Positions 19,200 through 26,008 of a stretch of DNA of 64,000 nt are shown here, in pieces (position 1 is the first letter of the stretch; each line of letters starts with the position of its first letter). A program made the position numbers and the translations under genes. The DNA is from Bacteroidota bacterium. Lineage in GTDB: Bacteria; Bacteroidota; Bacteroidia; UKL13-3. The notes beneath the pieces are model-generated. The model was not told where the DNA came from, did not search any database, and worked only from the letters and a program-made list of their open reading frames with translations. The stretch spans positions 1 to 64,000 of the forward strand of contig JAIXWI010000030.1 of assembly GCA_027491355.1 (NCBI GenBank), written 5' to 3'.

Positions 19200-20336
19200 T
19201 TATTTGAGCTTACCAATTTGTAGAAGGGCATTGCATAAGTATTCCCAAGTAAACTTTTGCTTTTCAGTTTGAATGGCCTGCTTCATTTGAGGTTCAAGAT
19301 TTTGCTGAAAGAAATGTGCCAATTTGCTTGCAATTTGTTCAGAATCTTTTTCACAAACCAAGCCTACTAAATTGTTTGGAACCAGTTCAGCTAACCCTCC
19401 TACATTCGTTACCAACATTGGGGTATCATAAAAATAGGCTATTTGAGTAACCCCGCTTTGGGTAGCTGAAATGTAAGTTTGTACAACAATGTCACTGGCG
19501 CAAAAAAACAATCCAACTTGATTATTAGGTATAAAATCTGATTTTAAAATGACATCATCCGCTAAGTTTAAATCTTTGATTTGTTGATGATAAGGATTGG
19601 CATCTTCATAAAATTCACCAGCAATTACCAATTTTAATTTCAAGGATTTCGTATCCATCTTGGCAAAACTTTCCAATAATAAGTGTAAGCCTTTGTATTT
19701 TCTGATAAAACCAAAAAACAAACAATACTTGTAGTTAGGGTCTAAACCAAGCATTTCTATTGCTTGTGCCTTGCTTATTTTAGGCCCAAACATATCATAC
19801 ATTGGATGTGGCACATATACACATGTCTTAGCTGCTTGTAGCTGATTTACCTGCGCTTGTATATCTTTTGACATGGCTAAAAAAGCATCACAACTGTTCA
19901 AAAAATACTGAGCCAATAATTTCTCAAAGGGTTTTCTTTCATGAGAAATCACATTATCAGTAATAGCTACCAATGTATTGTCTTTTCTTTTGATGAGACG
20001 AGCTAAAGTACCAAAAACAGGAGCCATGAAACTCAACCAATACCTAAAAATTACAAGATCATAACCCGCCTTTTTTATACGACTTGCAGTTTTAAACCAA
20101 TTGAATGGATTGATGGAGTTGAGTGTAGCATGAATTGTAATATCTGTTGGTTTTGGGTCGTCTGATAATTGGGTTTTACCAGGGAATAATATACTTGGAT
20201 ATTGTAAAGAGAAACTTTGAATTTCACATTCGAAACCTTGTGAATTGAACTCTCTACACAGTCTTTCATTGTATGTGGCCAAGCCGCCTCTTAGAGGCCA
20301 AGCAGGACCCACTATTAAAACTTTTTTAGCCTTCAA
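19200..20336 (-). CDS. glycosyltransferase family 4
   Basis: The 378-residue protein has the GT-B fold: an N-terminal GGLATYNERL glycine loop, then a C-terminal donor-binding half with FFGFIRKYKGLHLLLES and SGVTQIAYFYDTPMLVTNVGG followed by an acidic ELVPNNLVGLVCEKDSE. The start is a TTG at 20336; a stop two codons upstream and the good N-terminal match (KKVLIVGPAWPLRGG) support it. It overlaps the end of the GT2 gene by 11 bases, so it is translationally coupled. The acceptor is unknown, probably a cell-envelope glycan or lipid. Confidence 0.88.
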   Translation of the reverse strand: MKAKKVLIVGPAWPLRGGLATYNERLCREFNSQGFECEIQSFSLQYPSILFPGKTQLSDDPKPTDITIHATLNSINPFNWFKTASRIKKAGYDLVIFRYWLSFMAPVFGTLARLIKRKDNTLVAITDNVISHERKPFEKLLAQYFLNSCDAFLAMSKDIQAQVNQLQAAKTCVYVPHPMYDMFGPKISKAQAIEMLGLDPNYKYCLFFGFIRKYKGLHLLLESFAKMDTKSLKLKLVIAGEFYEDANPYHQQIKDLNLADDVILKSDFIPNNQVGLFFCASDIVVQTYISATQSGVTQIAYFYDTPMLVTNVGGLAELVPNNLVGLVCEKDSEQIASKLAHFFQQNLEPQMKQAIQTEKQKFTWEYLCNALLQIGKLK

Positions 20337-21306
20337 TTCCTAATTTTTTCGTAATGCCATATACATTTCTTTCAGCTGCATTGCGAGAAATCATTTCTCC
20401 TATAAAGCCAGCTAAAAAGAGTTGAACACCTATCACTGTAGCAACCAAAGAGATGAAGAACAAGGGTTGATCAGTGATATTCCTGACTACATTGTCTCCA
20501 GAATAAACCAACCACAATTTTTCTCCTACAATGTAAAGGGTACTAAAGAAACCTATCATGAACATGAGGGTTCCCATAACCCCAAAAAAATGCATGGGTT
20601 TTTTCCCAAATTTAGATACAAAAAAGATGGTTAATAAGTCTAAAAAACCATTGATAAACCTTGAAATGCCACCAAACTTTGTTGAACCATATTTTCGAGC
20701 ACGGTGTTGTACTACATGCTCCGTAATTTTTCTAAAACCCGCCCATTTGGCTATAACCGGAATGTACCTGTGCATTTCGTTATAAACCTCAATACTTTTT
20801 ACAACTTCAGAGCGGTATGCCTTCAAGCCACAATTGAAATCATGTAGTTGAATGCCTGAGATGTATCTTGTTGCTGCATTGAAAAACTTGGTAGGAATGG
20901 TTTTACTAATAGGATCGTACCTTTTCTTTTTCCAACCACTAACCAAATCAAAACCCTCTTCTGTAATTTTTTTATACAATGCTGGGATTTCATCAGGACT
21001 GTCTTGCATGTCAGCATCCATTGTGATGACAACATTACCTGAGGTTTCGTGAAATCCTACATTTAATGCTGCAGATTTTCCATAATTACGTCTAAACTTG
21101 ATGCCCCTGATGCAACTGTTTCTTTGGTGATGGCTTTCAATTAATTTCCAAGAATGGTCGGTGCTGCCATCATCAATGAATAGCATTTCGTAGCTGAAGG
21201 CATTTGCATTCATTACGCGTTCAATCCATTCGATCAATTCGGGAAGGGATTCTTCCTCGTTGAACAATGGGATGACAACTGAAATATCAATTTTTGAATT
21301 ATGCAT
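20326..21306 (-). CDS. membrane-anchored GT2 glycosyltransferase (DPM1/GtrB-like)
   Basis: The 326 residues show a GT-A domain with VVIPLFNEEESLPEL, DDGS at 45-48 and the metal-binding DAD at 97-99, then QDSPDEIP. Two C-terminal membrane helices (about 235-260 and 280-303) give the architecture of polyprenyl-phosphate glycosyltransferases. It would load a sugar onto undecaprenyl phosphate at the inner membrane. It overlaps the upstream DUF4199 gene by 8 bases and the downstream GT4 gene by 11, so the three are co-translated. The sugar cannot be told from the sequence. Confidence 0.88.
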   Translation of the reverse strand: MHNSKIDISVVIPLFNEEESLPELIEWIERVMNANAFSYEMLFIDDGSTDHSWKLIESHHQRNSCIRGIKFRRNYGKSAALNVGFHETSGNVVITMDADMQDSPDEIPALYKKITEEGFDLVSGWKKKRYDPISKTIPTKFFNAATRYISGIQLHDFNCGLKAYRSEVVKSIEVYNEMHRYIPVIAKWAGFRKITEHVVQHRARKYGSTKFGGISRFINGFLDLLTIFFVSKFGKKPMHFFGVMGTLMFMIGFFSTLYIVGEKLWLVYSGDNVVRNITDQPLFFISLVATVIGVQLFLAGFIGEMISRNAAERNVYGITKKLGIEG

Positions 21307-21829
21307 GAACCTCGCTATTAAGCTTGTTATTCCTTGTAAAAATTGCTACCAAAAGGGTTAATAATGATCCAAAAAAGAGCGAACTAAAATATGTAACAAA
21401 CGCATTAAAAACTGGATTCATAAACATTTCAGTCATTTTCATTGCACCCTCTATTTGCTCATCGGTCATTCCCTTTTCTAACATATTTGCTTTAGTAGAC
21501 TGCATGATGTTTTTCATATAGTCTGGGTCAATGTAGTTATTAAAAATAACAGTATAAGCTGTGAGAATCAATGCGCCAACTGCTACAATTGCAATACCTG
21601 TTCCAACCCCTTGTCCGTATGTCAAATGACCAGATTCAATTTCATTTTTACGGGTTTTTAGCCCAAAAAACAAGATTGCAATGTTTGTTGCAATTGTGAG
21701 GACGGTTAATAAAGCACTGTTCTGATAAATCTCTAAAATGTAAGTAACCAAGGTAAAGCCAATGTTTGCCAAAGCATAAATAATAGCAAATTTAGTGATG
21801 ACCTGTTTGGTTGTTGTGTGCTGCTCCAT
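21299..21829 (-). CDS. DUF4199 membrane protein
   Basis: The 176 residues form about four membrane helices: two near the N-terminus, one around residue 75-95 after the conserved HLTYGQG motif, and one at the C-terminus. A soluble Met-rich loop with EQIEGAMKMTEMF lies between the last two. This pattern is that of the Bacteroidota DUF4199 family, whose function is not known. It overlaps the GT2 start by 8 bases, which suggests a link to glycan transfer at the membrane, though this is inference only. Confidence 0.8.
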   Translation of the reverse strand: MEQHTTTKQVITKFAIIYALANIGFTLVTYILEIYQNSALLTVLTIATNIAILFFGLKTRKNEIESGHLTYGQGVGTGIAIVAVGALILTAYTVIFNNYIDPDYMKNIMQSTKANMLEKGMTDEQIEGAMKMTEMFMNPVFNAFVTYFSSLFFGSLLTLLVAIFTRNNKLNSEVHA

Positions 21830-21861: not shown

Positions 21862-22518
21862 TTAATGCCTATAAAAACCGCGCAATGTTTCATATACAGC
21901 TGTATCAAATTTACTCAAAACAGCTGCTTCTTCATCAACAATTCCTTCAGGTTCTTGGAAAAACAATACCAAGGCCAAAAATAATGGCTTTATTGGGTTT
22001 TCATCTTTGATTGCAGTTTGAATTTCTTTGATACTAGACAGTTCTGCTTCTAAAATGTCTTCATTGACAATGAATGGCTCATAAATAGACAATTCGTCTT
22101 GGAATTCATCTTCATCTACCAACAAGAATTCATTCAAGAAATCATCCAATGAAATTTCTACATCTGCTTCTTTGGCTTCACTCAAATACAAGAACAAGTT
22201 CAACAATTCAGTTCCTCTATCAATGGTTTTGTCTTCGATTTGGTCCCATTCTGGTGAATCAAAAAATGATTCTGGTTTATTTTCTGCAGACAGTAATTTT
22301 ACCAATAATAAATCGAATGCAAATTCGTGAATTGGTTCTAACTCTGGTTTGCTAGCAAACAATTGATCAAGGGATTTTACCCTTTTTAAAAAATCTTGCT
22401 CATGGTCATTAAATATTGCCAAACAGGCTTTACAAATTTCTAAAGTAGAAGGAGAATTATCGAATTCAGTAAACAATACTTGTAAAGCATGTTGAATGGT
22501 AGATTGGTTAGTTGACAT
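21862..22518 (-). CDS. acidic protein of unknown function
   Basis: I do not recognise this 218-residue protein. It is strongly acidic, soluble and mostly helical in appearance, with an Asp/Glu-rich middle (ISLDDFLNEFLLVDEDEFQDEL) and no signal peptide or membrane span. Its ATG overlaps the stop of the dihydroorotase-like gene in a TAATG junction, so the two are translationally coupled and may act together. DUF4199 follows 32 bases downstream. Confidence 0.75.
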   Translation of the reverse strand: MSTNQSTIQHALQVLFTEFDNSPSTLEICKACLAIFNDHEQDFLKRVKSLDQLFASKPELEPIHEFAFDLLLVKLLSAENKPESFFDSPEWDQIEDKTIDRGTELLNLFLYLSEAKEADVEISLDDFLNEFLLVDEDEFQDELSIYEPFIVNEDILEAELSSIKEIQTAIKDENPIKPLFLALVLFFQEPEGIVDEEAAVLSKFDTAVYETLRGFYRH

Positions 22519-23795
22519 TAGAATATATTTAGTTTTTGTTTATGATAAACCGCTAACACATTGCCTTTAATCGTTTGATTATGCAATGGATTATTTTTGG
22601 TTTTAGAATGTTGTATGATAAATGTTTTTGAATGATTTGGATCAAAAATTGTGAACGAAATGGGTTGCCCAATTTGAAAATTAGAATTTTCAAAACCCAG
22701 TATTTGAGCCGGATTTGTTGTTAGGGCCCTGATTACGGATTCCCATTTAATTTCACTTGGTTTTGAATGAACCAACATGGGTAAGAAGGCTTCTAAAGTA
22801 TTCATACCATGTTGCGCATATTCATATTCTAAATTTTTAAACTCTAGTGCAATTGGCGTGTGGTTACTGACAATGGCATCAATGGTTCCGTCTGCTATTC
22901 CATCCCAAAGGGCTTGTTGATCTGCTGGAGTTCTAAGAGGAGGAATGACTTTAAAATTTGTATCATATGCCATTAAATCTTTGTCACTAAAACACAAATT
23001 GGCAACGGCAACATCGCATGTTACTTTCAAGCCTTGTTTTTTAGCTTTTTTAATGATTTCTATACTTTGTTTGCTAGAAATTTGACTGAAGTGAATGGTT
23101 CCCTGCGCATATTTGAGTAATTCTATGTCTCTTTGAATTCTTATTTCTTCAGCAAGTGCTGGACTTCCTTTTATTCCAAGGTAAGTGCTTTGATTTCCTT
23201 CATGTATTCTCTGACCATTTGCCAAGCCTGCATCATTGGCATAGGTAAACAATTTACCATTCATCCCCTTTAAATAAAGCAATGCTTTCAAAAGCAATCC
23301 TGCGTTTTCTATAGCATGATTGCCATCTGTGAATCCAATGGCACCTGATTGTTGCATGTCATACATTTCAGCAAGTTCTTTACCTGCGGCATTTACACTA
23401 ACAGTTCCAAAAGGATAAATAGATACAGGTAATTTGTCAGAGAGGTTCACCACATTTTGAATGCCTGATTTAGAATCTCTACAAGGTTGTGTGAGTGGAC
23501 TCAGCATGACTTTTGCAAAACCACCTCTTAAAGCAGCTTGTGAACCTGATTCAAAGTTTTCTGCATCTTCAAATCCAGGTTCGCCAAAATTTGCGTACAA
23601 GTCTATCCAAGCTTGACTCAAGAATGCTTTTTGAGCATCGAATCTTTTGTAATCTTTTGAAATGGCATCAAATGCTTTCTTTTTTGAAGGTTCTATGGCA
23701 TGCAATAGACCATCTTTTATCATTAAATCACAATACTTGCCATTCAATTCTGCATTCGGATCGCAAATCAAGGCATTGAGAATGATTAACTTCAT
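22518..23795 (-). CDS. dihydroorotase-like protein, probably inactive (pseudo-dihydroorotase)
   Basis: The 425 residues align with class I dihydroorotase throughout, for example YLGIKGSPALAEEIRIQRD at 205-223 and YDTNFKVIPPLRTP at 277-290. The zinc and catalytic residues are gone: the HxH motif is Y67 and N69, the following Arg is Gly71, the HAED motif is YAND (185-188), the second ligand His is Gln238, the PHH motif is VAN (264-266), and the catalytic Asp is Asn311. Known inactive dihydroorotase homologues serve as structural partners of aspartate transcarbamoylase in some bacteria; whether this one does is unknown. It is coupled to the acidic gene by TAATG and lies 90 bases after the BatA-like gene. 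Confidence 0.85.
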   Translation of the reverse strand: MKLIILNALICDPNAELNGKYCDLMIKDGLLHAIEPSKKKAFDAISKDYKRFDAQKAFLSQAWIDLYANFGEPGFEDAENFESGSQAALRGGFAKVMLSPLTQPCRDSKSGIQNVVNLSDKLPVSIYPFGTVSVNAAGKELAEMYDMQQSGAIGFTDGNHAIENAGLLLKALLYLKGMNGKLFTYANDAGLANGQRIHEGNQSTYLGIKGSPALAEEIRIQRDIELLKYAQGTIHFSQISSKQSIEIIKKAKKQGLKVTCDVAVANLCFSDKDLMAYDTNFKVIPPLRTPADQQALWDGIADGTIDAIVSNHTPIALEFKNLEYEYAQHGMNTLEAFLPMLVHSKPSEIKWESVIRALTTNPAQILGFENSNFQIGQPISFTIFDPNHSKTFIIQHSKTKNNPLHNQTIKGNVLAVYHKQKLNIF

Positions 23796-23885: not shown

Positions 23886-25898
23886 TTAAAAATATTTGAG
23901 TAAAAGCATTTCTATTATCAAAAACAGCAAGGCTACAATTAAAAAATAACGCCACAATGCATGTCCGTTTAAATTCATTTGTATTTGGGTTTTAAAAGCC
24001 TCATTGTTTTCTTGGTGCAAAATAAACCCAGCATTTTCTAATGTTTCTATTGAATTAAAAGTTAAACTTGATTCAGTTCTGTTTGCATTAATTGCGAATT
24101 TTGTAATACAATCAGGTCCATTTAATACATTGTAAATACCTGGCTCTTGAATACTTGTGGGTATTTCAATTGCATAGACTCCTGCCCTATTGCTTGCTTG
24201 ACATTGCCAAGAGCGTTTGTCTTTTTTGATGGTGAATGAGTTGTTTTCAGAAATGACTGATACTGGTAGAAACTTTAGTTGATTGGCTTGATAAGCTAAA
24301 TGTTGCCTACTCTTGATTGAAAAAGGCAGGTTCAATAAAAACGGCACAAAAAAAGCATGGTTTGTGAATTGATCTTCTGGTGCAAGCATAGGTGTGGCAA
24401 CTAAAACCAATTGACCTTTCCCAAATTTTTTTCTAATGGCATAGGGTTGGCCATTGCTCATGCCAATAATTTTTTGAACTGTAACATTCCCATTGCTTTC
24501 AATTGGGAAATAGGCCGATACTTTGGGATACAGGGTTTGAGCTGACAAATTGGTAAACACCTGTTTGAACAGTTCATCTCTTGTTTGGATTTCATTGATT
24601 TCAATATTATCTCGTTGAAGTTCTCCAAAACCAAGACCAAGCTTGCTTAAAAAAGCATCATTTTTTGAGGACTGTTCTTTTGCAGGAAGCATCAATACTA
24701 AACCACCATCTTTCATAAAATTGAGTAAAGCTTCTTCCAAGCCAGAGCTTAATTGTTGAACACAATCAAGTATAATCAATTGTTGGTTGTTAAAAACTTG
24801 AGGGTTTGTTTTATGAATAGGTTGTTGCAACAAATGATAAGATGCATCTAATTGGTATAATTTTTTAAAAGCAATATTGGGTTCATTTCCATACAACTGA
24901 AGTACATTGATTTGAGCATTGGCTTTGACAATGAAATGATAACTGTCATCAAATACCAAAGGATAATCGTTGAGGGTAAAAGTTGCAGTATGCCAATTGG
25001 TATCTTTGATAGTGTAGTTAAACTTTAACAACTCAGTTTGATTGGCATTGCAACTGAAATTTTGCAAATTCACTTTTTTATGATCAATCAACAAAGACAA
25101 AGTTTGATTTTGAATAGCTGTTTCGGAGTTGTTTTTCACATTGACATGAACAGTAAAGGGTCTGTTTACTTTTATAAAAGGTTCGTCTATCCATACAGTA
25201 TCAATCCAAATATTGTTTTTTAAAACGGGTTCTAATGGTATAAAATGAATTGGTAAAGTAGCATCTTGCTTGAAATTCGCAAGGTTGAATTGACTCTTTT
25301 GGCCATCTGAAATCCAGTACAAACTGGCATGTTGATAGAATTTGCTTTGGAATGCAGCCAATTGTTTACTGTAAATGTGTTTTGCTGACCTTGAATAACC
25401 GGTCAAATGAGTTTGTTCAATTTTCTCTAAAAAAGCCTTTTTATTTAAAACCAATACCTGATCAGGATCAAAATTATTATTGAACAGTTGGTATTGAACG
25501 CCATCTCCATAGGATTCAGCCAAGAGTCTTGCTTTGTTTTTAGCTTCCTCCAATAAAGTTGATTGCTCACCATTAAGATACATAGAATAACTGTTGTCTA
25601 AATATACCGAAACCAATTGTTCTGAATTGGGTTTAGTTTCACCTATTGGAATGAATGGTTGCGCAAAAGCAAGCACCAAGAAAAGCAACATCAATAGCCT
25701 CATGGCCAATATCAACCAATGTTTTACTTGTTTTTGCTTTTTTGTTTCAAAAGCTATTTGTTTCAAAAATCGAATATCAGAAAACACTATTTTTTTAGGT
25801 CTTCTAAAATTGAACAAATGAATGACAACAGGCAATGCAAGTAAACTCAATGCCCATAAAAAACTTGGATATAAAAACTGCACCTCGCAAAATACCAT
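23886..25898 (-). CDS. BatA-type membrane protein with von Willebrand/GATase-like region
   Basis: The protein has 670 residues from the ATG at 25898; a TTG one codon upstream is not needed. The N-terminus has the BatA signature, two membrane helices around FLYPSFLWALSLLALPVVIHLFNFRRP and a second near residue 65-85, then VYLDNSYSMYL, a VWA-like MIDAS DxSxS motif. The periplasmic part ends with a last helix at the C-terminus. A stretch around residues 370-410 (LIILDCVQQL, GGLVLMLPA) resembles a class I glutamine-amidotransferase-like fold often found in this family. It heads the six-gene cluster down to the GT4 gene. Confidence 0.82.
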   Translation of the reverse strand: MVFCEVQFLYPSFLWALSLLALPVVIHLFNFRRPKKIVFSDIRFLKQIAFETKKQKQVKHWLILAMRLLMLLFLVLAFAQPFIPIGETKPNSEQLVSVYLDNSYSMYLNGEQSTLLEEAKNKARLLAESYGDGVQYQLFNNNFDPDQVLVLNKKAFLEKIEQTHLTGYSRSAKHIYSKQLAAFQSKFYQHASLYWISDGQKSQFNLANFKQDATLPIHFIPLEPVLKNNIWIDTVWIDEPFIKVNRPFTVHVNVKNNSETAIQNQTLSLLIDHKKVNLQNFSCNANQTELLKFNYTIKDTNWHTATFTLNDYPLVFDDSYHFIVKANAQINVLQLYGNEPNIAFKKLYQLDASYHLLQQPIHKTNPQVFNNQQLIILDCVQQLSSGLEEALLNFMKDGGLVLMLPAKEQSSKNDAFLSKLGLGFGELQRDNIEINEIQTRDELFKQVFTNLSAQTLYPKVSAYFPIESNGNVTVQKIIGMSNGQPYAIRKKFGKGQLVLVATPMLAPEDQFTNHAFFVPFLLNLPFSIKSRQHLAYQANQLKFLPVSVISENNSFTIKKDKRSWQCQASNRAGVYAIEIPTSIQEPGIYNVLNGPDCITKFAINANRTESSLTFNSIETLENAGFILHQENNEAFKTQIQMNLNGHALWRYFLIVALLFLIIEMLLLKYF

Positions 25899-26008
25899 CA
25901 ATTCTTAATTTTTGAAACCACTTTTTAAACTGAGAAAAAATAAGTAACAAACTGCAGGATGCTAAATTAAAATTTGTACTATCATTGCAGTGACTCATAC
26001 TCAAAATA

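Follow-up and report, generated by a model that had tools for sequence, protein, structure and literature searches.

A gene in the 64,000-nucleotide stretch of DNA analysed here (the window) encodes a pseudo-dihydroorotase (pDHO) that, we propose, is most likely a non-catalytic subunit of aspartate transcarbamoylase (ATCase). The protein is likely to be an unrecognized ATCase subunit because its metal site has been lost and because its presence in genomes tracks a single type of PyrB, the cell's ATCase. The gene and two features of its active site are located as follows.

22518..23795, minus strand: pseudo-dihydroorotase, 425 aa, class I dihydroorotase fold with none of the six metal/catalytic residues
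23589..23597, minus strand: degenerate HxH motif (Y67, N69) within the sequence IDLYANFGEPG, position computed from codons 67-69
22863..22865, minus strand: codon of N311, the counterpart of catalytic Asp305 in Aquifex; the next residue, H312, is nearly invariant; position computed from codon 311

The reading frame runs uninterrupted from an ATG start to a TAA stop at 22518, and the Aquifex aeolicus dihydroorotase (DHO) aligns with its product end to end (E 2e-61); the family profile of pDHO again returned the Aquifex protein as first match. An AlphaFold model of pDHO (mean pLDDT 91.6) most closely resembles 3d6n_A, the Aquifex DHO in its ATCase-bound crystal (TM 0.91), and latent forms of the isolated Aquifex enzyme, with fewer observed residues, give TM values of 0.77-0.79. 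Thus, a preliminary description of this DNA was right that the ORF is intact and that the overall alignment with class I DHO is preserved. In the Aquifex enzyme, the metal ligands are H61, H63, D153, H180 and H232, and the catalytic Asp is D305 (PMC3880350). The corresponding pDHO residues are Y67, N69, G158, Y185, Q238 and N311, with none of the six kept. The preliminary description had correctly listed Y67/N69, Q238 and N311 as degraded sites; its 'A265/N266' is not among the metal or catalytic positions, and the loss of metal-binding Asp153 was absent from its list. The PG/E motif that follows the degenerate HxH is conserved, and H312, the His beside the catalytic Asp position, is kept in pDHO and almost invariant across the family. 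At 264.8 versus 279.05 bits, pDHO misses the cut-off of the catalytic dihydroorotase family TIGR00857. It has the full-length class I fold of a catalytic type I DHO and none of the six residues; judged by these residues, it is not a catalytic dihydroorotase. Nor is it a pseudogene, because comparison with its nearest relative yields a dN/dS of 0.10, indicative of purifying selection.

With a cut-off of E<=1e-26, pDHO orthologues were found in 286 of 345 sampled genomes of the host class within the Bacteroidota, a distribution we describe as near-universal, and 56 of 58 near relatives of the host gave a match. Species of Pedobacter are among those with an orthologue. Two false positives were taken out of the 345-genome count. 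Matches rejected as orthologues were, in genome G126, an intact type I DHO whose gene is preceded by a pyrB of its own, in the PyrI-containing genome G577, an intact PRK09236-type DHO, and the locus L101. Both HxH histidines are kept in none of 47 aligned family members, and 16 of the 47 have none of the six metal/catalytic positions left. By comparison, all six are kept in each of 26 intact type I DHOs, a set that includes the 20 sister-class loci sampled within the phylum, every one of which has intact ligands. In six of these 20 sister-class loci, pyrB lies directly upstream of the DHO gene and encodes a PyrB 58-63% identical to that of the host. Among the columns that are invariant in DHOs, those for metal binding, catalysis and substrate are the most variable in the pDHO family, whereas the other invariant columns are conserved (Mann-Whitney p 2e-5); conserved family positions are P73, G92, E199, G207, E216, H312, K320 and G330. 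The active-site loss is beyond chance.

In a maximum-likelihood DHO tree, the pseudo-DHOs form a single clade (SH-aLRT 100) that excludes proteobacterial PyrX, and the pseudo-DHO of the host class has a single origin. The backbone that would place this clade beside the sister-class enzymes is weak, as is that between the pDHO and PyrX clades; pDHO is best read as having evolved independently of PyrX.

As previously pointed out, no pyr gene adjoins pDHO in the window, and pyrB was not linked to the pDHO gene in any in-class locus examined. The host genome encodes one PyrB of 308 aa, directly behind pyrR, and no PyrI was found in this genome. Among solved structures, the host PyrB is nearest to Bacillus/Staphylococcus-type and Aquifex-type ATCases. 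A search for a second DHO with intact ligands turned up two intact-type DHOs in the host, on C39 and C1, both of the PRK09236 family and above its curated cut-off. In place of GVKIFMGSSTG, present in the C39 copy, the C1 copy (L010:1450-2802; G000:C1:79619-80863) has GITDDG, and thus the usual carboxylated lysine is missing from it. The C1 gene is flanked by an uncharacterized ORF and by a transporter-like gene with resemblance to sodium-bicarbonate symporters.

Co-occurrence of pDHO with its cognate PyrB (cut-off E<=1e-75) was counted over the same 345 genomes. Both proteins are present in 280 genomes, pDHO alone in 6, cognate PyrB alone in 28 and neither in 31 (Fisher 5e-22, a value that ignores shared ancestry). 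That pDHO follows one PyrB lineage in this manner supports the idea, raised in the preliminary description, of a protein selected for a non-catalytic role, possibly that of an ATCase scaffold; the separate intact-type DHOs and the single PyrB without PyrI in the host also favour it. Some of the 28 genomes scored as having cognate PyrB alone in fact encode a highly divergent pDHO that escaped the stricter search: two of family f75 (G353, G576) and, out of ten from f87, at least five. Eight of the 28 are below 90% completeness, and three belong to f94 (G381, G411, G438), in which neither pDHO nor PyrI was found and PyrB is 52-53% identical to that of the host. In G542, G550, G553, G604 and G610, of estimated completeness 97-100%, pDHO was not found despite the cognate PyrB; these genomes are either real or assembly-related exceptions to the pairing. 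Four of the six pDHO-bearing genomes without cognate PyrB are less than 80% complete. Pairwise distances of pDHO and PyrB are correlated given those of alanyl-tRNA synthetase (partial r 0.64, permutation p 1e-4), with the correlation carried by fast-evolving lineages and vanishing among slow-evolving ones. Some fast-evolving rows excepted, the cognate PyrBs cluster beside the sister-class PyrBs encoded in intact pyrB-pyrC pairs.

Several cases of a replaced or missing PyrB go together with the absence of pDHO. None of the 15 PyrI-containing genomes of the host class has pDHO; their PyrBs are 32-38% identical to the host protein, and those sampled form a separate deep lineage. In family f21, likewise without pDHO, PyrB falls with that of Bacillus (support 100); the ATCase of B. 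subtilis is a working stand-alone trimer. In family f30, the PyrB of G126 (L146) is a different one and adjoins an intact type I DHO, as in Hymenobacter canadensis; G126 has no pDHO, and G220, its congener, has neither PyrB nor pDHO. Both proteins are likewise absent from f84. The pyrB and intact type I DHO pair of H. canadensis sits on a plasmid (L283), with very similar proteins in G126; this pair is unlike the rest of the class.

We hold it to be quite probable that pDHO is a subunit of the cell's ATCase with a structural and probably regulatory role and no catalytic one, by the mechanism of the class A enzymes of Aquifex and Pseudomonas. In Pseudomonas aeruginosa, ATCase is monomeric and inactive without its inactive DHO chain, with which it forms a 6+6 dodecamer (PMC7053772), and Sinorhizobium meliloti becomes a pyrimidine auxotroph when its proposed pyrX gene is disrupted (PMC5929573). 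By analogy, we infer physical contact between pDHO and PyrB, a dodecamer and any regulatory role. Dimers of pDHO would bridge two PyrB trimers into the dodecamer, which PyrB of the cognate lineage would need for assembly, activity or nucleotide control, and cyclization to dihydroorotate would fall to a separate intact DHO of PRK09236 type, encoded elsewhere. Such a subunit may have originated from the active DHO of a pyrB-pyrC pair that lost catalysis and kept its partnership with PyrB; this history would account for all observations on pDHO in the host class.

Against the subunit reading stand the lack of linkage to pyrB, the near-complete genomes and f94 members in which PyrB occurs and pDHO was not found, and a pDHO in one genome (G050) where PyrB was not found. 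The genes surrounding pDHO could point to a different partner. Its neighbours in the window are:

23886..25901, minus strand: BatA-domain membrane protein (listed at 671 aa), encoded immediately upstream of pDHO
21862..22518, minus strand: acidic all-helical protein, 218 aa; its start codon and the stop codon of pDHO overlap as TAATG
21299..21829, minus strand: DUF4199 membrane protein, a frequent downstream neighbour
20326..21306, minus strand: family 2 glycosyltransferase (GT2; undecaprenyl-phosphate type), a frequent downstream neighbour
19200..20336, minus strand: glycosyltransferase group 1 (GT4-like), a downstream neighbour

Of 76 in-class loci, 52 have a BatA-like gene near pDHO, in almost every case immediately upstream of it, and about a third have GT2, DUF4199 or the acidic protein. 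In G050 (L152 / L102), where no PyrB was detected, a very divergent pDHO is retained next to BatA. Rufibacter tibetensis plasmid 2 (L275, NZ_CP012645.1), a 12.5 kb circle that could be a misassembled chromosomal fragment, carries six annotated genes, encoding a hypothetical protein, a pseudo-DHO annotated as dihydroorotase, two DUF4199 proteins, a GT2 and a GT4. That pDHO was co-opted to work with its neighbours (BatA-like membrane protein, DUF4199 and glycosyltransferases) and has no tie to ATCase is nonetheless unlikely: pDHO persists without a BatA neighbour in 24 of the 76 loci (in some of which the contig ends nearby), and such a role leaves unexplained both the tracking of one PyrB lineage and the absence of pDHO at each PyrB replacement. 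The acidic protein, whose model is of high quality (pLDDT 92.4), matches no Pfam family and has no significant fold match in the PDB; as it occurs in just 27 of the 76 in-class loci, PyrB is the more general candidate for a partner. A compound arrangement, in which pDHO ties the enzyme that opens pyrimidine synthesis, ATCase, to the neighbouring BatA-like and glycosyltransferase genes for envelope tethering or control, strikes us as distinctly improbable.

Two further readings concern the protein itself. Residual enzymatic function, by altered or metal-free chemistry on a related substrate, might be read from the near-invariance of H312, from the retention of D305 in 26 of the 47 aligned members and from a few members that keep three or four of the six positions; with all six gone from the window protein, and with catalytic and substrate columns that vary most and show no replacement consensus, we give this very little credence. 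The lost active site and the marked divergence of some lineages are also what a functionless, decaying duplicate would display, yet the protein is full-length in hundreds of genomes. Its retention and its purifying selection contradict decay, the probability of which we regard as negligible.

As an ATCase subunit, pDHO would most resemble PyrC'/PyrX of the class A2 enzymes (Pseudomonas, Sinorhizobium). These proteins share with it a class I DHO fold devoid of metal ligands, a separate catalytic-type DHO in the genome (by sequence) and a PyrB lineage without PyrI; the rhizobial and Azospirillum PyrBs that partner PyrX are 50-53% identical to the host PyrB. Although pDHO would work like PyrX, we do not classify it as such, because it falls outside the PyrX clade and its gene, beside that of the BatA-like membrane protein, is away from pyrB. 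The host PyrB also lacks a long N-terminal extension, with a family match that starts at residue 7. The Aquifex DHO-ATCase (class A1, 3D6N) provides the closest solved sequence and fold to pDHO and a similar PyrB, but its DHO is catalytically active whereas pDHO has lost all ligands. In fungal CAD-like proteins (5NNL; URA2), a degenerate DHO-like domain is also tied to ATCase; this domain, however, belongs to a fused multidomain protein and matches pDHO weakly in sequence (E 3e-8). PyrI of class B ATCase is likewise a non-catalytic subunit and never co-occurs with pDHO in the class sample, but it is an unrelated protein that goes with a different PyrB lineage. We found no description of a class-wide pDHO in the open literature, a search that did not extend to Labedan 2004 (cited in PMC5929573).

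If pDHO is indeed an ATCase subunit, a core metabolic enzyme in most of a major bacterial class would have an unrecognized second subunit, one that databases label 'dihydroorotase' (as in Rufibacter), and pathway reconstructions that count its gene as catalytic would be corrected. The ATCase of the host class would take its place among class A2-like enzymes, and pseudo-DHO subunits would have arisen independently a second time. The class would then also contain several natural replacements of the ATCase partner, by PyrI, by a stand-alone PyrB and by a pair with an active DHO.
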